Positions 1 to 12,184 of a DNA stretch of 12,184 bases are shown in pieces. Position 1 is the stretch's first letter. Every line of letters begins with the position of its first letter. A program made the position numbers and the translations under genes. Below the pieces are notes generated by a model that was not told the DNA's origin, did no database searches, and saw nothing but the letters and a program-made list of their open reading frames with translations. This DNA is from an uncultured Cytophagaceae bacterium (GTDB taxonomy: Bacteria > Bacteroidota > Bacteroidia > Cytophagales > Spirosomataceae), in assembly GCA_938008575.1 (NCBI GenBank), contig CALLKB010000269.1, forward strand, positions 1 to 12,184, given 5' to 3'.

Positions 1-608
1 ACATGACTTATTATTGGGTACACCGCATTTCGCATGAAGTTCGATTTTATTGGGCTTCACACATGGTGCACCATTCTTCCCCGAAATATAATTTGGCAGC
101 TGCTTTACGTCAAACCTGGACGGGTAATTTAACGGGCGGATTTCTGTTTTGGGCCTGGTTGCCTTTGTTGGGCGTGCACCCGTTTATCGTATTCTTTTTC
201 CAACAAACCAGCCTGCTGTATCAGTATTGGATTCACACCGAATTCATTCAAAAAATGCCCAATTGGTTCGAGCAATTTTTCAATACGCCGTCGCATCACC
301 GTGTGCATCACGGAACAGATTTAGATTATTTAGATACGAATTATGCCGGTGTTTTGATTATTTGGGATCGGATTTTTGGTTCTTTCCAGTCGGAGAATGA
401 CCGCCCGCATTATGGCTTAACAAAACAAATTGAAAGTTATAATCCCGCCAAAATTGCCTTTTACGAATGGGTACAAATCTGGAAGGATTTAGTACATGCC
501 AAAAGTATCAAACAAGTAGCAGGGTACCTGTTTGGCCCTCCGGGTTGGAGCGATGATGGAAGCAGATTAACCGTTGAACAAATGCGTGCACAAGCGAAAA
601 AGAAATAA
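1..608 (+). CDS. Sterol desaturase / fatty acid hydroxylase family protein, N-terminus missing
   Basis: This is a membrane di-iron oxygenase of the fatty acid hydroxylase superfamily, expected to hydroxylate or desaturate a lipid using O2. The 201 visible residues (counted from the ATG at position 3) carry the histidine clusters of the metal site: H7-x3-H11 (HRISH), H20-x2-H23-H24 (HMVHH) and H98-H99-x2-H102-H103 (HHRVHH). A further histidine is at 78, and a hydrophobic segment spans about residues 46-70. The ATG at 3 is almost certainly internal: family members have one or more membrane helices before the first HxxxH, and the frame is open to the window edge. The tail GPPGWSDDGS is typical of Bacteroidota members, which resemble alkylglycerol monooxygenase (from memory). 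The substrate cannot be read from the sequence. It is the first visible gene of a tight operon; the next gene begins 2 bp after its stop. Confidence 0.9.
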   Translation, partial: MTYYWVHRISHEVRFYWASHMVHHSSPKYNLAAALRQTWTGNLTGGFLFWAWLPLLGVHPFIVFFFQQTSLLYQYWIHTEFIQKMPNWFEQFFNTPSHHRVHHGTDLDYLDTNYAGVLIIWDRIFGSFQSENDRPHYGLTKQIESYNPAKIAFYEWVQIWKDLVHAKSIKQVAGYLFGPPGWSDDGSRLTVEQMRAQAKKK

Positions 609-610
609 TC

Positions 611-1384
611 ATGGATTTACAAGTGACAACCATGGCCGAGTGGGCCGCAAAAGGGGAGAGTCCCGACTTATTATTTTGGGTAGGTTGTGCAGGATCGTTT
701 GATGACCGACACAAAAAAGTGACTCGTGCATTGGCAGAAATTCTGAACCATGTAGGAATAAAATTTGCTGTACTTGGAACGGAGGAGGCTTGTACGGGTG
801 ATCCGGCTAGACGCGCGGGCAATGAGTTTTTGTTTCAAATGCAGGCGATGCAAAACATCGAAGTGTTGAATATGTACGGTGTTCAAAAAATTGTAACTGC
901 ATGCCCGCATTGTTTTAATACGTTGAAAAACGAATACCCATCCCTAGGTGGCACCTATGAAGTTATCCACCATAGTCAGTTATTGGCTGATTTATTAGCC
1001 GCCGGAAAAATTCAGTTCAACGAGCAAAAAGAAACCATCGCATTTCATGATTCATGTTATTTGGGACGTGGAAATGGGATTTTTGAAGCACCGCGTGAAA
1101 TCATCACGGGATTGAAAAAAGAGTTGAAAGAATTAAAAAGTTGTCGGACTAAAGGCCTTTGTTGCGGTGCTGGTGGCGCACAAGTATTCAAAGAACCTGA
1201 GGCAGGAACGGAAGATGTTCAAGTAAAACGTACAGGCGAAATACTAGAATCTGGTGTAAATAAAGTAGCTTTGGCATGTCCTTTCTGCATGGTGATGCTT
1301 CAAGATGGCTTGAACAAATCTGGCAAAGAACATGAAATCCAAGTAGTCGATCTAGCTGAATTAGTTCAGCAAAGTTTAAAATAA
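611..1384 (+). CDS. CCG-domain (Fe-S)-binding protein, heterodisulfide reductase/LutA-like
   Basis: A 257-residue soluble protein with two cysteine-rich CCG modules, the type found in heterodisulfide reductase HdrB, GlpC and LutA, where they hold Fe-S clusters and pass electrons. The second module is complete: C149 (HDSCYLGR), C184-C185 (LCCGAGG) and C223-x2-C226 (CPFC). The first has C26 (VGCAG), C61 and C98-x2-C101 (CPHC), but the usual CC pair is reduced to Ala60-Cys61. The start at 611 lies 2 bp after the upstream stop; an in-frame ATG at 632 is a possible alternative. In related Bacteroidota this protein commonly travels with a larger Fe-S oxidoreductase (memory), which would lie outside this window. 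The electron donor, acceptor and substrate are unknown. The family call is firm; the specific role is not. Confidence 0.88.
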   Translation: MDLQVTTMAEWAAKGESPDLLFWVGCAGSFDDRHKKVTRALAEILNHVGIKFAVLGTEEACTGDPARRAGNEFLFQMQAMQNIEVLNMYGVQKIVTACPHCFNTLKNEYPSLGGTYEVIHHSQLLADLLAAGKIQFNEQKETIAFHDSCYLGRGNGIFEAPREIITGLKKELKELKSCRTKGLCCGAGGAQVFKEPEAGTEDVQVKRTGEILESGVNKVALACPFCMVMLQDGLNKSGKEHEIQVVDLAELVQQSLK

Positions 1385-1385
1385 G

Positions 1386-1865
1386 ATGTATATACCTTTT
1401 CAGGAAATGCCAGCTCAGGCACGTATTTGGGTTTATCAAGCCTCACGTAGCCTACAAGCACAGGAACTCGATCAAATCAAGCAAACATTAGCACAATCTT
1501 GCCAAGTTTGGGAAGCACATGGTGCACCTTTGCAAGCTTCGTTTGAAATCAAATACAATCAAGTCATCATCGTAGCTGTAAATGAAGCTATGAATGCCGC
1601 TTCGGGCTGTTCCATTGATGCATCGACTCGTTGGTTTAAGGACTTAGGCGATGCCTTGCTGGTTGATTTTTTCAGTAGAGACGTGGCAGTCGTGAGAAAT
1701 GAACAAATGGAATTGTTTCCTTTAGGCCAATTGAAAGCTGCGGTTGAGGCAGGGAATTTGACTCGGGACGATCAAATTATCACTCCACTTTTGCAGACGG
1801 TCCAACAATACCGCGATTCATGGTTAAGTACGGCCGCTGATTCTTATTTAAAACGTTATTTCTAA
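1386..1865 (+). CDS. Conserved Bacteroidota protein of unknown function (often mislabelled 'ABC transporter ATPase')
   Basis: A 159-residue, probably cytoplasmic protein with no signal peptide or membrane helix. I recognise it as a family widespread in Bacteroidota, with the N-terminal pattern MYIPF..MP..ARIWVYQ and the central motif SGCSIDAST (about residues 73-81). Databases often name it 'ABC transporter ATPase', but no Walker A (GxxxxGKS/T), ABC signature (LSGGQ) or Walker B motif is present, so that name is unsupported. The conserved Cys75 in SGCSIDAS is a plausible functional residue (inference). The gene starts 1 bp after the Fe-S protein gene and ends 1 bp before the methionine sulfoxide reductase gene, so it is almost certainly co-translated with both, which suggests a redox-related role. 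No function should be assigned yet. Confidence 0.82.
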   Translation: MYIPFQEMPAQARIWVYQASRSLQAQELDQIKQTLAQSCQVWEAHGAPLQASFEIKYNQVIIVAVNEAMNAASGCSIDASTRWFKDLGDALLVDFFSRDVAVVRNEQMELFPLGQLKAAVEAGNLTRDDQIITPLLQTVQQYRDSWLSTAADSYLKRYF

Positions 1866-1866
1866 A

Positions 1867-2352
1867 ATGGCTGAAGATTTAATTATCCCCAAAGGTTCTC
1901 GTAAGGAGCAATATGAAGCCCTTTTTCCACAAATTCAAAGCCTTGTTGCGGGAGAAAATGACCTGACTGCAAACCTCGCAAACATTGCTGCAGCGATTAA
2001 AGAAGTTTTCGGATTTTTTTGGGTGGGTTTCTACCTAGTTAAAGACAATCAATTGGTTTTAGGGCCCTTTCAAGGTCCCGTTGCCTGCACGCGCATTCCT
2101 TTTCACAAAGGAGTATGTGGTCATGCGTATACGATTGCTGAAACGGTGATTGTACCAGATGTGGAAGAATTTCCAGGACACATCGCTTGCGCTTCTGCAT
2201 CCCAATCAGAGATTGTATTACCCGTAAAAAATCAGGCTGGTGACGTAACGATGGTGCTAGACGTCGACTCAGATTTGCTCAACGACTTTTCAGTTGTAGA
2301 CCAAAAAGGTCTCGAGAAAATTCTTGGATTGATTAGCGAAGCTTGGCAATAA
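1867..2352 (+). CDS. msrC: Free methionine-(R)-sulfoxide reductase (fRMsr), GAF-domain enzyme
   Basis: This enzyme reduces free L-methionine-(R)-S-oxide to methionine, a repair reaction after oxidative damage; electrons normally come from thioredoxin. The 161-residue length and single GAF fold (residues about 35-160) match the E. coli YebR/MsrC family. The three signature cysteines are present at C74 (ACTRIP), C84 (GVCGHA) and C108 (GHIACAS), with the same 10- and 24-residue spacing as C84, C94 and C118 of the E. coli enzyme. Glu115 (SEIVLP) and Asp132/Asp134 (LDVDS) match the acidic active-site residues as I recall them. The residue after C108 is Ala where E. coli has Asp. The gene starts 1 bp after its upstream neighbour and is the last of the operon. 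Its final 20 bp overlap the convergent psd gene. Confidence 0.93.
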   Translation: MAEDLIIPKGSRKEQYEALFPQIQSLVAGENDLTANLANIAAAIKEVFGFFWVGFYLVKDNQLVLGPFQGPVACTRIPFHKGVCGHAYTIAETVIVPDVEEFPGHIACASASQSEIVLPVKNQAGDVTMVLDVDSDLLNDFSVVDQKGLEKILGLISEAWQ

Positions 2353-2992
2353 CCGTTTCGCTTCCTACCGGTTTATCCCCAATATTCACGCAAATTTCTG
2401 CATCTAAGGGTAAGTAGATATCAATACGACTTCCAAACTTAATGAAGCCGAATTCTTGACCCTGTATTACTTGGTCACCTTCTTTGACATACCAGCAAAT
2501 ACGTTTCGCAAGCGCGCCGGCAATTTGGCGGAACAAAACTTCCGTACCATTTTCGTGCTTCACGACACAGGTTGTGCGCTCATTTTCTGTACTTGATTTA
2601 GGATGCCAAGCAACTAAGTATTTGCCTGGATGATATTTGAAATAAGTTACGATCCCTGAAATTGGATTGAAATTCACGTGCACATTGATCGGTGACATGA
2701 AAATAGATACTTGTTTTCTTTTGCCTTTGAAATACTCGGGTTCTTCTACTTCTTCAATCACAACAACCTTGCCATCTGCTGGAGCAATGATATGTTTGGG
2801 ATTGATTTCCGTGTGACGCTTCGGTACACGGAAGAATTGTAAGATAATTAAAAAGAAAAGCGAAGTAACTATGACTACAGCTTCGCGTAAATAGACTTGC
2901 TCTGGGAAAAAATAAGCGATTAGCCCATTAATCACTAAAACGATAAGTAAAGAACTGATTAATAATGATTTTCCTTCGCGGTGTAATGTCAT
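2333..2992 (-). CDS. psd: Phosphatidylserine decarboxylase family protein
   Basis: It converts phosphatidylserine to phosphatidylethanolamine at the inner membrane through a pyruvoyl group made by self-cleavage. The 219 residues are typical of the short, archaeal-style Psd found in Bacteroidota rather than the roughly 300-residue E. coli form. Two hydrophobic helices (about 9-29 and 37-54) anchor the N-terminus. Key motifs follow: PADG (71-74) with the catalytic Asp73, NVHVN (103-107) with His105, the block HPGKYLVAWHPKSSTENERT (121-140), and FGSRID (186-191), where cleavage between Gly187 and Ser188 would make the beta and alpha chains. It appears to be a single-gene unit: no phosphatidylserine synthase gene is beside it. 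Its stop lies inside the 3' end of the convergent msrC-like gene. A candidate -7 box lies about 40 bp upstream. Confidence 0.93.
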   Translation of the reverse strand: MTLHREGKSLLISSLLIVLVINGLIAYFFPEQVYLREAVVIVTSLFFLIILQFFRVPKRHTEINPKHIIAPADGKVVVIEEVEEPEYFKGKRKQVSIFMSPINVHVNFNPISGIVTYFKYHPGKYLVAWHPKSSTENERTTCVVKHENGTEVLFRQIAGALAKRICWYVKEGDQVIQGQEFGFIKFGSRIDIYLPLDAEICVNIGDKPVGSETVIAKLR

Positions 2993-3031
2993 AAATCGAA
3001 TAGTTTTGCGCTATTTTATATAGCTTAAGGA

Positions 3032-3039
3032 CAAAATTA
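3032..3039 (-). promoter_or_regulatory. Candidate Bacteroidota -7 promoter box for psd
   Basis: On the - strand this reads TAATTTTG, an exact match to the Bacteroidota -7 consensus TAnnTTTG. It sits about 40 bp upstream of the psd ATG, predicting a leader of roughly 30 nt. I see no clear TTG -33 element at normal spacing, so the call rests on the -7 box and its position. The 130-bp divergent region (2993-3122) is very A+T rich and must also contain the promoter of the + strand gene at 3123, for which I find no convincing consensus. Confidence 0.42.
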
Positions 3040-3122
3040 CTACATTTTTTGTGCCCTTACCTAAACAATATTCAATTTTTGTATAAAAAAAATGCATTTT
3101 TGGGGTATTGATAATTCATTGC

Positions 3123-4550
3123 ATGCGATTTAGTTCAAAACTTTCCCTTCTATTTTTTCTGTTAAGCTGCGCCATTTCGCTTCATGCACAGGTTTTTTCA
3201 TGGCGCGAACCTGGCGTTCGAACTTGTTATAAAATCGATTTCGTTGCGAATCATTTGTATGAATCCAATGCAAAAGGCCTATGGCAAGATTTGGGTGTTG
3301 TGAATCTTGTCGATGTAAAAGCGCTTGATTTGTACGCGAATGCAGATGCCATCAATCCGATGAAAATTAAAGGTCATCAAGGAACATATTTGGTCATGGA
3401 GTGCAGCGGGCAAGTATATTATTTTGATTTGGCCACAAAAACAATCAAACGTGAGGATCTAACTTTTTACCGAGGAGCAAATTGCCAAGCGGTACAATTT
3501 GCGCGTAAAGATACCATTTATAGTTTTGGTGGATATGGGTTTTGGCAGTCGACCAACATCATGACGCAATTTAATCTCGTTTCCAAAGAATGGACCCATA
3601 TTTTAGCTGGTGGCCCCATCCCCAAAGCCATTCACAAGAAAAGAGCTGTTTATCTTCCTGACGAGGATCGATTCATTGTATTGGGTAGTCATCGAATCAA
3701 TCAAACTGAATCTGCAGATGTTACAGAATTCGATTATTCGATCTATGATTATCAGTTTTCAGATAAAAAATTCAATAAACTAGGAGAGGTCTACGAACCC
3801 TTGTTGCGAACGCTCATGTCGGGAGAAAGCAGTAATTTCTTGCTGGCAATGGGTCGATACATTGTAATTTCGCCCAATCACAACATCCCCAATTACAACC
3901 ATGATTTACTTTATATCATTGATGTAAGAGATTCATTTAAAGCCTATTTGTGGACAAATCCCGCTCGGTTCCAAATTCGCAAATTTATTGAGGAGCGAGG
4001 GGTATTATATAGCGTTTACACAAATAAGAACGCGATCTTTTTGCCTCAAGCACAAGAAACCTATCCTTATGGTTCCTATCAAATCGCTGAAGTTTCCATC
4101 AACACCTTACTCGCTGAAAGTAAATACCTAGGTCCCATCATGGAAAGGCCCATGGTTGACACCATGCAAGATTTTTCACTCATTGTCCTTGGGGTCCTAG
4201 TCGTATTTTTTGTATTACGTTTTCTTATTTCACTAAAACGTCGAAAAAAAAGGAGTCAATTACGCATGCTTCTTGGGCCTAATGAAAAACAATTCTTGGA
4301 TTTCCTTCGCTTGAATTACCGACAAGGGCATGTATCCGGACATCAAATTGTCGCCTTTTTTGGCAAACATAAAAGTAGCCCCGAATCGCAAAGACAATTC
4401 AGGGCTAAATTAATTGACGGACTAAATAAATCACTCGGACTCGTATTTCCTGGCGAGCAGGTGCTCGATATTCAAGCGGACGAGAAAGACCAACGGATGT
4501 TGACTTACCGACTGACCGAAACGATTTACCAAGAACTTAAAAATCTATAA
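3123..4550 (+). CDS. Exported propeller-like membrane protein with C-terminal cytoplasmic domain, function unknown
   Basis: I do not recognise a named family. The chosen ATG gives 475 residues beginning with a clear signal peptide (about 1-22, ending SLHA). The ectodomain (about 23-345) has kelch/propeller-like features, such as the block at about 133-160 with IYSFGGYGFW followed by a Trp and a repeated beta-strand pattern. One transmembrane helix (about 351-369) is followed by the basic stretch KRRKKR, predicting that the last 100 residues are cytoplasmic. That tail (GPNEKQFLDFLRLNY, then SQRQFRAKLIDGLNKSLG) resembles the winged-helix-like tails on some Bacteroidota membrane sensors, so transmembrane signalling is possible but inferred. 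The TTG five codons upstream is less likely because it would place charged and polar residues ahead of a good signal sequence. The stop overlaps the convergent peptidase gene by 6 bp. Confidence 0.8.
   Translation: MRFSSKLSLLFFLLSCAISLHAQVFSWREPGVRTCYKIDFVANHLYESNAKGLWQDLGVVNLVDVKALDLYANADAINPMKIKGHQGTYLVMECSGQVYYFDLATKTIKREDLTFYRGANCQAVQFARKDTIYSFGGYGFWQSTNIMTQFNLVSKEWTHILAGGPIPKAIHKKRAVYLPDEDRFIVLGSHRINQTESADVTEFDYSIYDYQFSDKKFNKLGEVYEPLLRTLMSGESSNFLLAMGRYIVISPNHNIPNYNHDLLYIIDVRDSFKAYLWTNPARFQIRKFIEERGVLYSVYTNKNAIFLPQAQETYPYGSYQIAEVSINTLLAESKYLGPIMERPMVDTMQDFSLIVLGVLVVFFVLRFLISLKRRKKRSQLRMLLGPNEKQFLDFLRLNYRQGHVSGHQIVAFFGKHKSSPESQRQFRAKLIDGLNKSLGLVFPGEQVLDIQADEKDQRMLTYRLTETIYQELKNL
4377..4406. 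repeat. Near-perfect inverted repeat inside the coding region
   Basis: Two 10-base arms, AGCCCCGAAT at 4377-4386 and ATTCAGGGCT at 4397-4406, pair at 9 of 10 positions around a 10-base loop. It lies within the cytoplasmic-tail coding sequence, about 145 bp before the stop. There is no T-run after it, so it is not an intrinsic terminator. It may be chance or an mRNA hairpin. Confidence 0.4.
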
Positions 4551-6722
4551 GTTCTTCTCTAAGAAATTTGTCAACATATTATACAAGTGTAAACGGGTAT
4601 TTCCGCCGGAAATGCCGTGATTACGGTTTGGGTAATAGAATGTTTGAAATTGTTTGTTCGCTTTAATCAGGGCATCTTCTAATGCCACGGCATTTTGAAA
4701 ATGCACGTTGTCGTCGCCCGTTCCATGAACTAATAGTAAGTTGCCTTTCAATTTGTTCACATGGTATACAGGTGAGTTTTCATCATATCCCGTTGGGTTT
4801 TCCTGTGGCGTACGTTGGTATCTCTCTGTATATATCGAATCGTAAAAACGCCAGTTGGTCACCGGAGCAACCGAAATCGCAGCTTTAAATACATCTGCTC
4901 CTTGCATCAAGCAATTGGACGACATAAATCCTCCATAGCTCCAACCCCAAATTCCTATGCGGCTTGCGTCTACATAAGGTAGGTTTCCGATGAATTTAGC
5001 AGCGAAAATTTGATCTTGTACCTCAATTCGGCCTAGGTTTTGGTAAGTGATTTTCTTGAAAGCGACCCCTCTGCCACCGGTTCCGCGGTTATCTACGCAA
5101 TAAATCAAATAGCCTTTTTTCAACAACATTTGATACCAGTAAAAATCAGCACCCGGATAAGAATCCAATACTTGTTGGCTCCCAGGGCCGCCATATACAT
5201 GCATCAAAACAGGGTATTTCTTGTTCGGGTCAAAGTTGGCCGGCTTAATCCAGTACGCGTTCAAATGATCCCCATTCGCCAATGGAATTTCGAAGAATTC
5301 ACGGGGTGAAATTTGATATTCCGTAATCTGCGCTTGTAATTTTTGATTGTCTTCTAACTCGCGAACTAAACCTTTTGTCGCATGATATAAAGCGATACTT
5401 AACGGTTTTTTCGCCGAACTGTGGTTTAGAATGTAATAAGAAAAGTCAGTGCTAAAGCTTGCTGAATTCGTTCCTGCTAAGATTGAAATTGCTTTTTTAC
5501 CTGTGCCATCTAATTTGATCGAATAGACTTGTCGGCCTATCGGGCTGACCTCTGTGGAATTAAAATACAAGGTTTTCGTTTTCTCATTGTATCCGTATAA
5601 GTCATCTACCTCCCAGTTTCCTGATGTAATCGGGCTGAATTTTCCCGTTGCAATTTCACCTTGGTATAGATGTTTAAATCCGCTGCGTTCCGAGCTGAAA
5701 ATGAACGTTTTTCCATCATTTAAATAGGTGAAATCATTTCCTACGGCCTCTATTTCAATGGATGTTTCTGCATGTTCTTCATAGATTAAGCTGTTGCTTG
5801 CTTTGCTGATGCTGTAATGCAATAATTCCATGTGGTTTTGAAGGCGATTCAAACGAATAAAACCTACTATATCTGGATTTTTTGTCCATTTCAAACGTGG
5901 TATGTATTGGTTTTTTTCTGGGCCTACAGGGATTGTCTGTATTTTGTTTTCATCCAACAAAGTCACAGAAAGGCTCACGATGGAATTGGCTTCGCCTGCT
6001 TTGGGATATTTGTAGCGGTAATCTTTCGGATATAAATCTCCCCACATTTGCATGTTGTATTCGGGTACTTGGCTTTCATCAAAGGTGTAGAAGGCGATTT
6101 TTTTGCTGTCGGGCGACCAAGCAAACGCTTTCGCAAACGAAAATTCTTCTTCATACACCCAGTCACATGATCCATGGATGATGTGATTAAATTTGCCGTT
6201 CGTCGTAATCGCGGTTTCTTTTCCGCTGGCAATGTCTGTCCAGAATAAGTTGTTATCTCGCACAAATGCTACACGTTTTCCATCTGGCGATAAAGTTGCA
6301 TGCATTTGTTTCCCGCCTTGCGATAACAAACGAAGTGAATTATTTGCCCGAGAAAAGATGTAATTCGTTTCCTTCGAACTTCTGCGGTAGATGGCCTCTG
6401 ATGCTGTTCCAATTAGAATGGTTTGTTCGTCGGCGGATAAAGAAAACTGTTGCACATGAATCGTTCCACCCGTACCTGTTTTGTGAATCGCTTCGTCGAA
6501 AAGAGTTTCTGATTTGCTTGGGTCTAAAATATTGTATTTAAGGATTTTTCCTTCTTTTAATTCCAAATACGATTGCCCATCCTGTGACCAATTGAGGTTT
6601 TGAATGCTTTTTTGTCGGAAAGTGGGCTTTGCCCAAATATCTTCAAGCGAGATGTCTTTTTGTGCGAATGCTGTTGTTGAGCCTAATAATAGGAATCCTA
6701 CAAGTAGTTGTTTGATGTTCAT
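4545..6722 (-). CDS. dpp4: Dipeptidyl peptidase IV family serine protease (S9B)
   Basis: This exported exopeptidase removes X-Pro or X-Ala dipeptides from peptide N-termini, feeding peptide catabolism. The 725 residues start with a signal peptide (about 1-20, ending AFA). The N-terminal beta-propeller (about 40-470) carries DWVYEEEF (187-194), whose Glu192/Glu193 pair corresponds to the human DPP4 Glu205/Glu206 that binds the substrate amino terminus. The alpha/beta-hydrolase domain follows, with Tyr510 (VYGGPGSQ, oxyanion hole) and the triad Ser595 (GWSYGG), Asp670 (HGTGDDNVHF) and His702 (NRNHG). All catalytic residues are present, so it should be active. It lies 17 bp downstream of an unknown lipoprotein gene on the same strand and is probably co-transcribed with it. 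It ends in TAG, overlapping the convergent gene by 6 bp. Confidence 0.95.
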   Translation of the reverse strand: MNIKQLLVGFLLLGSTTAFAQKDISLEDIWAKPTFRQKSIQNLNWSQDGQSYLELKEGKILKYNILDPSKSETLFDEAIHKTGTGGTIHVQQFSLSADEQTILIGTASEAIYRRSSKETNYIFSRANNSLRLLSQGGKQMHATLSPDGKRVAFVRDNNLFWTDIASGKETAITTNGKFNHIIHGSCDWVYEEEFSFAKAFAWSPDSKKIAFYTFDESQVPEYNMQMWGDLYPKDYRYKYPKAGEANSIVSLSVTLLDENKIQTIPVGPEKNQYIPRLKWTKNPDIVGFIRLNRLQNHMELLHYSISKASNSLIYEEHAETSIEIEAVGNDFTYLNDGKTFIFSSERSGFKHLYQGEIATGKFSPITSGNWEVDDLYGYNEKTKTLYFNSTEVSPIGRQVYSIKLDGTGKKAISILAGTNSASFSTDFSYYILNHSSAKKPLSIALYHATKGLVRELEDNQKLQAQITEYQISPREFFEIPLANGDHLNAYWIKPANFDPNKKYPVLMHVYGGPGSQQVLDSYPGADFYWYQMLLKKGYLIYCVDNRGTGGRGVAFKKITYQNLGRIEVQDQIFAAKFIGNLPYVDASRIGIWGWSYGGFMSSNCLMQGADVFKAAISVAPVTNWRFYDSIYTERYQRTPQENPTGYDENSPVYHVNKLKGNLLLVHGTGDDNVHFQNAVALEDALIKANKQFQTFYYPNRNHGISGGNTRLHLYNMLTNFLEKNL

Positions 6723-6739
6723 TGTTTGTTAGAAGTAGC

Positions 6740-7294
6740 TTAATCTTGAAAAATGACAATGGGGTCGGTTTCCACCACATTGCTTGTTTGTAATGCGTTA
6801 TCTCGAATGTAAATTTGAAATTTCAGGGTGTCGTTTTTCGGGGTAAAAAGGGGTGAATAACCTTTGTAAAAGGCATAGACGAATTGGGTTGAATAGTCAA
6901 CGGTTCCTTCAATCGGGCCAGGTTTTTGATCCGCGTTGAATTTGAAATTCATGAGTCCGCCTAAACTAGGACTGAAGGTAACAGGGACAAATTTGCCATT
7001 TTTTTGAAGCAAAACATTGACCTCAAAATTGCGAAAATCCTTGTATTTCGTGGGGTTTGCTTTTAGGTCCGCTTGCGTGATTCCTAAATCGCCATCTCCA
7101 TCTTGAAAATGAATGGACATGACAACGGAATCAATTTTGGCTTTTCCGCCAAATCCATCATTACTTGTTTTGGTGATTTTTTGAATTTGACTAAAACTGA
7201 TGGAAGGAGTTAAGCTCCATTGAGGTTCTTTCAGGCAAGAAAGAAGTCCAGCGGCAAAAACAATAATTCCCAAAATGCGAAAGCCCCATGTCAT
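6740..7294 (-). CDS. Predicted lipoprotein of unknown function
   Basis: A 184-residue protein with a lipoprotein signal: the hydrophobic stretch at about 6-18 ends in LLSC, so Cys20 should be lipidated and anchor it in the outer or inner membrane. The mature part is mostly predicted beta strand. It contains the acidic motif FQDGDGDLG (about 67-75), resembling calcium-binding DxDxDG loops seen in many small Bacteroidota lipoproteins. A second acidic patch, VVETDPIVIFQD, is at the C-terminus. I do not recognise a specific family. It precedes the DPP IV gene by 17 bp on the same strand, so the two probably form an operon, but a functional link to the peptidase is only suggested by position. The start is the only good ATG before the signal sequence. 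Confidence 0.82.
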   Translation of the reverse strand: MTWGFRILGIIVFAAGLLSCLKEPQWSLTPSISFSQIQKITKTSNDGFGGKAKIDSVVMSIHFQDGDGDLGITQADLKANPTKYKDFRNFEVNVLLQKNGKFVPVTFSPSLGGLMNFKFNADQKPGPIEGTVDYSTQFVYAFYKGYSPLFTPKNDTLKFQIYIRDNALQTSNVVETDPIVIFQD

Positions 7295-7319
7295 AATTCG
7301 TAAAGTTAATGATTTGGTT

Positions 7320-7327
7320 TAATTTTG
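7320..7327 (+). promoter_or_regulatory. Candidate Bacteroidota -7 promoter box for the LuxE-like gene
   Basis: This reads TAATTTTG, an exact match to TAnnTTTG. Transcription would begin near 7334, giving a leader of about 15-33 nt to the in-frame ATGs at 7349 and 7367. It also argues against translation from the TTG at 7325, which lies inside the box. No clear TTG -33 element is visible. The divergent lipoprotein gene starts only 25 bp away, so the promoters of the two units must be close or overlapping. Confidence 0.45.
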
Positions 7328-7348
7328 TATGATTATTCAAAAAAAGCC

Positions 7349-8428
7349 ATGGGGTCTGAATTGAACATGTGGGAGTCTTGGCGATTAGAACTGAGAAATA
7401 AGGTTCTATCGATGTGTGATGCGGATTTTGAGTCCATTGCTCTCGAGATGTTCCGTTTTACTTGGACCTATAATCCCTTGTATAAACAGTATCTTGATTT
7501 ACTTCAAATCGATGCCCAGGCCGTGAAGTCATTACAAGATATTCCTTTTTTGCCTATTGAGCTTTTTAAAAGCCACCGTGTTCAAACGGGTTTTGGCTCG
7601 GTGTTATTTGATTTTGAAAGTTCGGGGACAACGGGTCAAATTCCTTCTAAACATCCCGTTTGTGATCCTGAATTTTACCAACAACAATCCAAACGCATTT
7701 TTGAATCGCAATACGGACCACTTTCGGATTACCATATTTTTGCGCTTTTACCCTCTTATTTAGAACGAAGTACCTCGTCTTTGGTCTTCATGATGGATTA
7801 TTTCATCAAGGAATCGGGTTCGCCCACTTCTGGTTTTTTCCTAAATCAATACGAGGAGCTGGTAGCTCAAATCAATAAAGCCTTGCTCTCCGATCGTAAA
7901 ATTTGGGTCATGGGAGTGACTTTTGGTTTATTGGACTGGGTTGATTCAGGGCAAGATTTTTCCTTTTGGAAAGAGGCGGTTGATGCTGGCCGACTGATCG
8001 TCATGGAGACCGGGGGGATGAAAGGCCGACGAGAGGAATGGATTCGGGAGCGGGTACATGAATTTTTGAAAACATCCATGGGCGTTGATCAAATTGCCTC
8101 AGAATATGGCATGACTGAATTGTTCTCGCAAGCCTATGCGTCCACAGACGGAATTTTTACACCTGGGGTTTCCATGCGTGTTCAATTGCGTGAGGTGACT
8201 GACCCTTTTGCCAAAGTGACAAAGCCGGGTCGTGTAGGAGGGATTCAAATCATCGATTTGGCTAATATCGATTCATGCCCTTTTATCGAGACGCGCGATT
8301 TGGGATCTTTAGAAGAAGATGGTATCCGATTTAAGGTATTAGGCCGATTTGATAATTCAGAAATCCGTGGCTGTAATTTGATGGTCGATCAAGGATGGGG
8401 AACGAGCCAAGCAGAGCCGTCCGCATAA
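7349..8428 (+). CDS. LuxE-like acyl-protein synthetase / AMP-forming adenylating enzyme
   Basis: An ANL-superfamily enzyme expected to activate a carboxylic (probably fatty) acid as an acyl-adenylate. In luminous bacteria LuxE then passes the acyl group to LuxC. With the ATG at 7349 the protein has 359 residues and the full set of core motifs: the P-loop FESSGTTGQ (90-97), METGGMKGRR (219-228), SEYGMTE (251-257), ETRDLG (314-319) and LGRFDN (331-336). The length and the C-terminal RGCNLMV fit stand-alone LuxE-like proteins in Bacteroidota. No luxC reductase or luciferase gene is nearby, so bioluminescence is not implied; activation of an acyl group for lipid or polysaccharide modification is more likely (inference). 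The ATG at 7367 is an alternative start. The last 40 bp overlap the convergent moaE gene. Confidence 0.87.
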   Translation: MGSELNMWESWRLELRNKVLSMCDADFESIALEMFRFTWTYNPLYKQYLDLLQIDAQAVKSLQDIPFLPIELFKSHRVQTGFGSVLFDFESSGTTGQIPSKHPVCDPEFYQQQSKRIFESQYGPLSDYHIFALLPSYLERSTSSLVFMMDYFIKESGSPTSGFFLNQYEELVAQINKALLSDRKIWVMGVTFGLLDWVDSGQDFSFWKEAVDAGRLIVMETGGMKGRREEWIRERVHEFLKTSMGVDQIASEYGMTELFSQAYASTDGIFTPGVSMRVQLREVTDPFAKVTKPGRVGGIQIIDLANIDSCPFIETRDLGSLEEDGIRFKVLGRFDNSEIRGCNLMVDQGWGTSQAEPSA

Positions 8429-8808
8429 AATTCATTTTTCCAGATAGGAACTTCTTGTTTCAAGGTATCGATAAGCCACTCACAGGCTTTAAATGCCTCC
8501 GCTCGGTGTACTGAACAAACGCCTATGATTACAGCAATATCTCCGATTTCCAATTTCCCAGTTCGATGCGCCACACTGATTTTACGAATGGGCCATTTTT
8601 CCGCCGCTTCATTGGCGATACGTTCCATTTGTTTTTTAGCCATGGCCGAATAGGCTTCCATGGTCAAATGTTCGACCTCTTTATTTTGATTCTTATTTCG
8701 TATCGTTCCCACAAATAGACAAATTCCTCCAGCCTCTGGGTCTTGCAGATAGGAATACGTTTCATCGATCGACAAAGCGGTATCGCTCAGGAGAATTTGA
8801 TGGGTCAT
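8389..8808 (-). CDS. moaE: Molybdopterin synthase catalytic subunit
   Basis: MoaE inserts sulfur, carried as thiocarboxylate on MoaD, into precursor Z (cPMP) to make molybdopterin. The 139 residues show the family pattern: FVGTIRNKN (32-40), the catalytic-core block with HRTGKLEIGD (81-90), HRAEAF (101-106), and Lys117 and Lys124 (in DTLK and VPIWKNE), spaced 7 apart like the essential Lys119/Lys126 of E. coli. The ATG at 8808 was chosen because it starts right before the family's first strand and overlaps the folA stop as ATGA; the same frame stays open upstream only as a basic, non-conserved extension inside folA. No moaD, moaA or moaC gene is in the window, so its partner must be encoded elsewhere. 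Confidence 0.94.
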   Translation of the reverse strand: MTHQILLSDTALSIDETYSYLQDPEAGGICLFVGTIRNKNQNKEVEHLTMEAYSAMAKKQMERIANEAAEKWPIRKISVAHRTGKLEIGDIAVIIGVCSVHRAEAFKACEWLIDTLKQEVPIWKNEFYADGSAWLVPHP

Positions 8809-9293
8809 TTGCGTGTATAGGTAATGTAACTGTATTGGTAAGCGTTTTTTTCGTCGGTGACGCCCCGTTCTTTTTCCGTGATTTCCCAAGATGTTGATGG
8901 AATTTCAGGAAAATAGGCGTCGCCCTCGAAGATGTCGTGCAATTGCGTCACTAAAATTTGATCTGCCAAAGCTAAACTAAGTGCATAAATTTCAGCGCCA
9001 CCCACAATGAAAATGTCTTCACGCGTAATTGATTTGGCTTTTAAAATGGCCTCTTCAACGGAATGGGCAATGATTACCCCCTCGATTTGTAAGTCGGCCT
9101 GCCGACTAATCACAATCGTTGTGCGATTAGGTAATGGTTTCCCGATGGATTCAAACGTTTTGCGGCCCATGATGATGACATGGCCCGTGGTCAAGGCCTT
9201 GAAACGCTTCAAGTCGGCAGGTAAATGCCAAATCAACGTATTGTTTTTTCCAATTACCCGATTTTCATCGAAGGCCACCAAGATTTTTAGCAC
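8805..9293 (-). CDS. folA: Dihydrofolate reductase
   Basis: It reduces dihydrofolate to tetrahydrofolate with NADPH, needed for thymidylate, purine and methionine synthesis. The 162 residues match the chromosomal type (E. coli 159). Visible motifs are VIGKNNTLIWHLPADLKRF, with Trp22 and the catalytic Asp27, the NADPH-binding GRKTFES (43-49), Arg57 (PNRTTIVISR) for the folate glutamate, and the second cofactor loop IVGGAEIY (96-103). The start is GTG, since the next in-frame Met is residue 42, beyond the active site. The stop TGA overlaps the moaE ATG by 4 bp, so the two are translationally coupled. The active-site residues are standard; I see no obvious signature of a trimethoprim-resistant plasmid-type enzyme. 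Confidence 0.95.
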   Translation of the reverse strand: MLKILVAFDENRVIGKNNTLIWHLPADLKRFKALTTGHVIIMGRKTFESIGKPLPNRTTIVISRQADLQIEGVIIAHSVEEAILKAKSITREDIFIVGGAEIYALSLALADQILVTQLHDIFEGDAYFPEIPSTSWEITEKERGVTDEKNAYQYSYITYTRK

Positions 9294-9312
9294 GATTTTA
9301 GGTTTTAATTGT

Positions 9313-9320
9313 CAAAAATA
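9313..9320 (-). promoter_or_regulatory. Candidate -7 promoter box for folA-moaE
   Basis: On the - strand this reads TATTTTTG, matching TAnnTTTG, about 20 bp from the folA GTG. That would give a leader of only about 12 nt. There is no clear -33 element, and the region is A+T rich, so a chance match is possible. Confidence 0.3.
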
Positions 9321-9392
9321 AGGGATTTTTTGGCTGGATTGTCTTCGAGAATTTTATTTTAAAAAATGCTTCACTTTTCGGGTGTAAAGCCC

Positions 9393-9400
9393 TAATTTTG
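9393..9400 (+). promoter_or_regulatory. Candidate -7 promoter box for carB
   Basis: This reads TAATTTTG, identical to the boxes at 3032-3039 (- strand) and 7320-7327. A weak -33-like TTC lies at 9370-9372, with 20 bp between. Transcription from near 9407 would give carB a leader of about 60 nt that contains the inverted repeat at 9421-9455. Confidence 0.45.
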
Positions 9401-9420
9401 TACAATTTTTGAGCCTAGTG

Positions 9421-9455
9421 TTAAGAGCTCACAAATTGCTAATCATTACTCTTAA
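9421..9455. repeat. Inverted repeat in the carB leader
   Basis: Perfect 7-base arms TTAAGAG (9421-9427) and CTCTTAA (9449-9455) flank a 21-base spacer, between the candidate carB promoter and its GTG start. It could be an operator half-site pair or a weak mRNA stem controlling carB. The arms are A+T rich, so chance is a real alternative. The rest of the 176-bp folA-carB gap (9294-9469) shows nothing else I can name. Confidence 0.35.
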
Positions 9456-9469
9456 AATTATACCATCTC

Positions 9470-12151
9470 GTGCCTAAAGATTCGTCGATTAAATCTGTCC
9501 TAATTATTGGTTCTGGTCCTATTGTCATTGGTCAAGCCTGTGAATTTGATTATTCTGGTTCTCAAGCCGCTCGTTCCTTACGGGAGGAGGGGATTGAAGT
9601 AATCTTGATCAACTCAAATCCAGCAACCATCATGACGGATCCGATGAATGCGGATCATGTGTACTTGAAACCTTTAGAGAAGGCTTCGATTATTCACATT
9701 TTAGAAAATCACAAGATTGATGCGGTTTTGCCTACCATGGGTGGTCAAACGGCCTTGAACTTGGCGATCGACTGTGATGCGGCAGGGATTTGGGAAAAAT
9801 ATGGGGTGAAGATTATCGGTGTTGATATTGCGGCGATTGAGACGACGGAAGATCGCGAGAAGTTCCGTTTGAAGATGTTGGAAATTGGGGTTGGTGTTTG
9901 TAAAGGTCGTACAGCACGTTCATTCCTGGAGGGAAAAGAGATTGCGCAAGAGACAGGTTTCCCATTGGTTATTCGCCCTTCGTTTACCTTAGGTGGAACG
10001 GGTGGAGGATTTGTTAATGATCCCAAAGATTTTGATGCGGCTTTGAATAAAGGTTTGCATGCTTCGCCTACGCATGAGGTATTGGTTGAGCAATCCATTA
10101 TGGGTTGGAAAGAATATGAATTAGAATTATTGCGGGATAATTTAGGAAACGTCATTATCATTTGTTCGATTGAGAACTTTGATCCGATGGGTATTCACAC
10201 GGGAGATTCCATTACAGTGGCTCCTGCAATGACGTTGCCGGATACGATTTACCAACGCATGCGTGACATGGCCATCAATATGATGAATGCTATTGGTCAA
10301 TTTGCGGGAGGTTGTAATGTTCAGTTCTCATTGAATCCTGAAACGGATGAGATTATTGCCATTGAAATTAACCCTCGTGTTTCACGTTCGTCTGCGCTTG
10401 CATCGAAAGCAACAGGTTATCCGATTGCAAAAATTGCCGCGAAAATGGCGATTGGTTATAATTTAGATGAATTAACGAATGCGATTACGGGTACAACTTC
10501 GGCGTATTTTGAGCCGGCTTTGGATTACGTGATTGTGAAGGTTCCTCGTTGGAACTTTGATAAATTTAAAGGCTCTGACCGTACCTTAGGACTTCAAATG
10601 AAGTCGGTAGGTGAGACCATGGGTATCGGCCGCAACTTCCAAGAAGCCTTACAAAAAGCGTGTCAATCTCTAGAGATTAAGCGGAATGGTATGGGAGCGG
10701 ACGGCAAGGAATTGCGCGATCAAGATGCGATTATGCATTCGTTGGCAAATCCATCATGGAATCGTTTGTTCCATATCTACGATGCCTTTAAAATGGGTAT
10801 TTCATTCAAAACCATTCAACAAGCGACGAAAATCGACAAGTGGTTCTTGAATCAAATCGAAGATTTAGTTCGTGTAGAGCGTGAGATAGAGAAGTATACG
10901 ATCTCAAATATCCCGAAAGAATTATTGGAAGAAGCGAAGCATAAAGGTTTTGCGGATCGCCAAATTGCACACACGTTACGTTGCCTTGAATCAGAGGTTT
11001 ACGACAAGCGTAATGCGATGGGCATCAAACGTATTTACAAATGTGTAGATACCTGTGCGGCGGAATTCGAAGCCAAGACACCTTATTACTACTCAACTTT
11101 CGGACAAGTGGGAACGGATGTGTTGGATAATGAATCGCAGGTAACGACTAAGAAAAAAGTGGTTGTGTTAGGTTCAGGGCCCAACCGGATCGGTCAGGGA
11201 ATTGAATTTGACTACTCATGTGTTCATGGGGTATTGGCTGCGAAGGAGGCAGGATATGAGACGATTATGATCAACTCGAATCCGGAGACGGTGTCTACCG
11301 ACTTTGATATTGCGGATAAATTATACTTTGAGCCTGTGTTCTGGGAGCATGTGTATGACATTATTCAACATGAGAAACCGGAAGGGGTTATCGTTCAATT
11401 AGGCGGCCAAACGGCTTTGAAATTGGCTGAAAAGTTATCGAAATACGGCATTAAAATTATAGGTACTTCTTATGAGGCTTTGGATTTGGCGGAGGATCGT
11501 GGTGCATTCTCAAGCTTATTGAAAGACTTGGAAATTCCTTATCCGAAATTTGGTGTTTGTGAAGATGCTGATAATGCCGTGGCTTTAGGTCGTGAATTAG
11601 GGTATCCATTATTGGTTCGTCCTTCTTATGTCTTGGGTGGTCAGTCGATGAAAATCGTGATTAACGAGCAAGAATTGGAGCAACATGTTGTTGATATTTT
11701 ACGTGATATCCCTGGAAATAAAATCTTATTGGATCATTTCTTGGAGAACGCGATTGAAGCGGAGGCGGATGCGATTTGTGATGGAGAAGATGTGTATATC
11801 ATCGGTATGATGGAGCATATTGAGCCAGCAGGAATTCACTCAGGGGATTCGCACTCTGTATTGCCTCCATTTGATTTGTCGGACAATGTCATCAAACAAA
11901 TCGAAGACCATACGCGCAAAATCGCGGTGGCCTTGAAAACCAAAGGCTTGTTGAATATTCAGTTTGCGGTGAAGGATGAAGTTGTTTACATCATTGAAGC
12001 GAATCCACGTGCGTCACGTACGGTACCATTTATTTGCAAAGCATACCAAGAACCATATGTGAATTATGCAACCAAGGTGATGTTGGGAGATAAGAAGGTG
12101 AAAGACTTTAATTTCCAGCCCGTGAAGAAAGGTTTTGCAATAAAGATTCCG
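9470..12151 (+). CDS. carB: Carbamoyl-phosphate synthase large chain, 3' end missing
   Basis: CarB makes carbamoyl phosphate from ammonia (delivered by the small chain CarA), bicarbonate and two ATP, for pyrimidine and arginine synthesis. Translation from GTG gives 894 real codons. The first ATP-grasp half starts SVLIIGSGPIVIGQ and is collinear with E. coli: Arg129, and Glu299/Asn301/Arg303 in EINPRVSR, fall at the same numbers. The second half starts VVVLGSGPNRIGQG and has Glu843/Asn845 in EANPRASRT, two residues offset from E. coli Glu841/Asn843. The genuine sequence ends at KKGFAIKIP, where homologues continue with P-V-F-S-like residues; it then runs into sequencing adapter. The remaining C-terminus (and any allosteric domain) is lost with the contig end. 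No ATG fits the start; GTG lies just before the first conserved strand. carA is not in the window. Confidence 0.95.
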
Positions 12152-12184
12152 AGATCGGAAGAGCACACGTCTGAACTCCAGTCA
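12152..12184 (+). other. Illumina TruSeq adapter sequence (artefact)
   Basis: The last 33 bases begin AGATCGGAAGAGCACACG and end CTGAACTCCAGTCA. The whole stretch is identical to the standard TruSeq adapter read-through sequence. It is not genomic DNA. It begins exactly where the conserved CarB sequence stops matching the family and runs to the last base of the window, as expected for an untrimmed read at a contig end. Confidence 0.98.

Follow-up and report, generated by a model that had tools for sequence, protein, structure and literature searches.

The window, meaning the whole stretch of DNA analyzed here, comprises 12,184 nucleotides of a contig from an uncultured Cytophagaceae bacterium, and it carries a series of ordinary genes followed by an incomplete carB and a short synthetic tail. 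At its left end (positions 1-608), a fatty acid hydroxylase gene is cut by the contig boundary (Pfam PF04116, profile positions 11-132 of 132). Positions 611-9293 are occupied by further ordinary genes encoding a Cys-rich CCG protein, a GAF-domain protein, phosphatidylserine decarboxylase, a Kelch-like protein, a DPP IV-type S9 peptidase, a LuxE-type protein, and MoaE. The frames at 1386-1865 and 6740-7294 returned no Pfam match, and the frame at 8805-9293 on the minus strand appears dihydrofolate reductase-like by eye. No RNA family matched at the gathering score within the window. Three overlapping or adjoining features make up the right end, the last of them a 33-mer that is the i7-side string of Illumina TruSeq-type libraries:

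9470..12151, plus strand: carB, carbamoyl-phosphate synthase large subunit, native part of 894 codons, cut by the contig end (NF003671 profile and relatives)
9470..12184, plus strand: hybrid open frame of 905 codons, open at its end, whose last 11 residues, RSEEHTSELQS, are adapter (list of open reading frames with open ends, translation of the adapter frame)
12152..12184, plus strand: synthetic Illumina TruSeq-type adapter, 33 bases, i7 side, read 1 read-through (33/33 identity, 0/200 shuffles, printed copy in PMC7283205)

The carB product scored 1368.7 bits against the NF003671 profile (cut-off 599), with protein residues 1-892 lying on profile positions 1-883 of 1058. The gene lacks its native 3' end, the remainder of the profile lying beyond the contig end. 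Relatives were defined as the best 80 from a scan of genome contigs that gave at least 597 matching stretches. The nearest of these 80 is L001, a Cytophagaceae MAG with 99% carB protein identity, and Aquirufa strains come next at 94%. At the DNA level, L001 is 87-89% identical to the window and collinear with it from base 1 to 12150; judged by the names of these relatives, the native contig thus resembles an ordinary one of Cytophagaceae/Aquirufa type. Because L001 is collinear from the first base of the window, the left end is an ordinary contig break, and it bears no adapter. A hidden mis-join within the window was considered and rejected against L001, since the single break in collinearity, at window positions 6483-6651, lies opposite a stretch of N in that relative. 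The window itself has readable sequence at these positions, within the S9 peptidase frame.

The relatives also locate the junction at the right end. Among the best 80, the DNA alignment ends at 12151 in 15 cases, at 12150 in 20, and earlier in 45, and none extends beyond 12151. In 79 of them, the carB alignment reaches residue 894 with at least 33 further bases available, while the remaining one (L079) ends at residue 863. After residue 894, all 79 reaching relatives continue with [VI]FS[FYH]xK; compared with the adapter over the 33 bases past this residue, none matches at more than 9 positions (median 7). The first base of the adapter is common to only four of the 79, and its first two bases to none. 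As read from these alignments, native sequence stops at 12151 and the adapter starts at 12152. The sequence-only reading of this DNA had placed the beginning of the adapter exactly where CarB homology ends, and the furthest DNA alignment end among the best 80 relatives, position 12151, bears this out.

From 12152 to 12184 on the plus strand, every one of the 33 bases is identical to the Illumina TruSeq i7-side adapter, and the final adapter letter is the last base of the window. This is the single match in the window when both strands are searched with up to three mismatches, and the same search returned none in 200 dinucleotide shuffles of the window. A trimming list in PMC7283205 gives the identical string, followed by one C, and identifies it as the i7 adapter minus the index region. 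The original identification of the final 33 bases as TruSeq read-through adapter is supported by all three of these results. The adapter points outward, and genomic homology breaks off at its first base. Exact junction and adapter identity also agree with the earlier view of the window edge as an assembly artefact. The last 33 bases are therefore a piece of synthetic adapter attached where an ordinary bacterial carB breaks off, a biologically meaningless leftover of laboratory and assembly work and a familiar type of artefact.

A second adapter was sought in the window with 12 adapter or homopolymer strings, and none was found. The 13 names in this screen correspond to 12 distinct strings (those of 454 and Ion being identical), one of which is the i7 adapter itself. 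The longest string shared with other adapters measured 11 bases (Nextera), besides 13 bases at the same site, 12152. The earlier concern about further untrimmed read ends on the contig was consequently not upheld within the window, given this screen and the collinearity of L001 over positions 1-12150 apart from its N run.

The behavior of the same 33-mer elsewhere was followed in a sample of 121 matches in at least 120 public viral contigs, with positions taken in contig coordinates. Each of the 121 listed matches is closer to the contig end at which it points than to the other, and 120 of them lie within 214 bases of that end. The window agrees with these 120 in having the identical 33 bases, outward and terminal. 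In 105 of the 121, no more than 100 bases follow the adapter. Very short overhangs are frequent: three listed matches have no base beyond the adapter, as in the window, and 12 have one (15 of 121 together), compared with four that have 2-5 bases. At a guess, samples having been pooled, this excess of overhangs of 0-1 base could reflect assemblies halting at the point where indices branch. The base after the adapter is C in 118 listed matches, and the other three are at the contig end. Where at least 24 bases follow (62 listed matches), 60 show the C, then 6-10 bases of index size, then the P7 tail, in which at most two substitutions were allowed; L100 and L135, which depart from this arrangement, resemble a noisy and a one-base-short version of it. 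The window differs from most other contigs in ending before the C, the index, and the P7 tail. The 33-mer, accordingly, behaves as an adapter in public contigs. One viral contig of 5047 bases, L154, has an outward adapter stem at both ends (10-42 and 5014-5046).

The identity of the string, its position, its outward orientation, the exact junction, and its like behavior in other public contigs are direct observations. It is nearly certain that they reflect a synthetic adapter, probably one acquired by short-insert read-through, left in place by missed trimming, and carried by the assembler onto the contig end. A library insert from the bacterium would have been shorter than the read, so that read 1 would have left the insert at base 12151 and entered the i7-side adapter. 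The reads would then have been incompletely trimmed, and the assembler would have placed the adapter on the contig end, halting before the index. Together, a short insert, incomplete trimming, and assembler carry-over would explain the position, the orientation, and the exact start. The brevity of the insert, the lapse in trimming, and the reason for the assembler's halt after 33 bases are inferred, read-through being the likeliest cause; the index and P7 tail, which would add proof of adapter origin, lie outside what the window includes. A comparable passage of untrimmed adapter from reads into assembled contigs is described in PMC8864876, which deals with adapter contamination of PacBio HiFi assemblies and lists insertions, duplicates, and mis-joins. 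The adapters described there are those of PacBio, whereas in the window the adapter is Illumina's and sits at the end of a contig.

The only serious rival also accepts a synthetic adapter but derives it from a chimeric molecule or a mis-join, in which the adapter was ligated inside a longer molecule, instead of from plain read-through. It has a precedent in L093, the sole positional exception among the listed viral matches, where the adapter lies 1258 bases from the end and is followed by index and P7 tail inside the contig, with other sequence after them. This interior adapter (L093 3889-3921) probably represents a chimeric assembly, and it implies that the stem can also occur away from a contig end. 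Nothing follows the adapter in the window, however, and 120 of the 121 listed viral matches lie near the end pointed at, as read-through predicts, which leaves a chimeric origin only a slim chance. For users of the sequence, this alternative would change nothing. The other reading takes the 33 bases as true genomic DNA, either a diverged carB end or an insertion, with a fortuitous likeness to an adapter. It can point to a frame that stays open across all 33 bases, but its probability is negligible: chance resemblance is ruled out by the 0/200 shuffles with up to three mismatches, divergence or insertion is ruled out by the conserved [VI]FS at this site in 79/79 reaching relatives of the best 80, and the open frame carries little weight when two of the three forward frames of the stem lack a stop and viral frames crossed it 64 times.

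The open frame of carB crosses the adapter and gains RSEEHTSELQS, which is false and not protein, and the earlier warning that any feature called across 12151/12152 is false proved correct. The 64 crossings were counted among frames already open for 60 codons in 120 listed viral matches, out of 121 (L152 was dropped, as upstream sequence was lacking), and they yielded RSEEHTSELQS in 34 cases and xDRKSTRLNSS in 30. Given these crossings in viral contigs, an open frame over such a junction is to be anticipated and does not indicate a gene. Adapter stems and open frames of this kind, both observed in contigs, suggest a more general problem. Stems at contig ends are very probably widespread in public metagenome contigs, where they would give predicted proteins spurious C-terminal peptides (RSEEHTSELQS and xDRKSTRLNSS) that look conserved. 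No mention of these tail peptides was found in the open literature searched, and they may be reported elsewhere.

The practical meaning for this contig is a data-quality warning only: positions 12152-12184 should be discarded, carB should be taken as truncated after residue 894, and the 11 residues beyond it should not be treated as protein. The adapter stem recurs at other public contig ends, where it leaves false open frames. In the family to which L001's genome belongs, the string was present in three of 222 genomes searched (L201, L202, and L203), exact in each case, and these assemblies merit adapter screening. As in the window, the identical 33 bases are outward and terminal, the contig end lying 33, 7, and 7 bases away, respectively. 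The index and full P7 tail are visible in the first of the three, and the other two end too soon to judge. One of these three genomes is also the one that holds L002.
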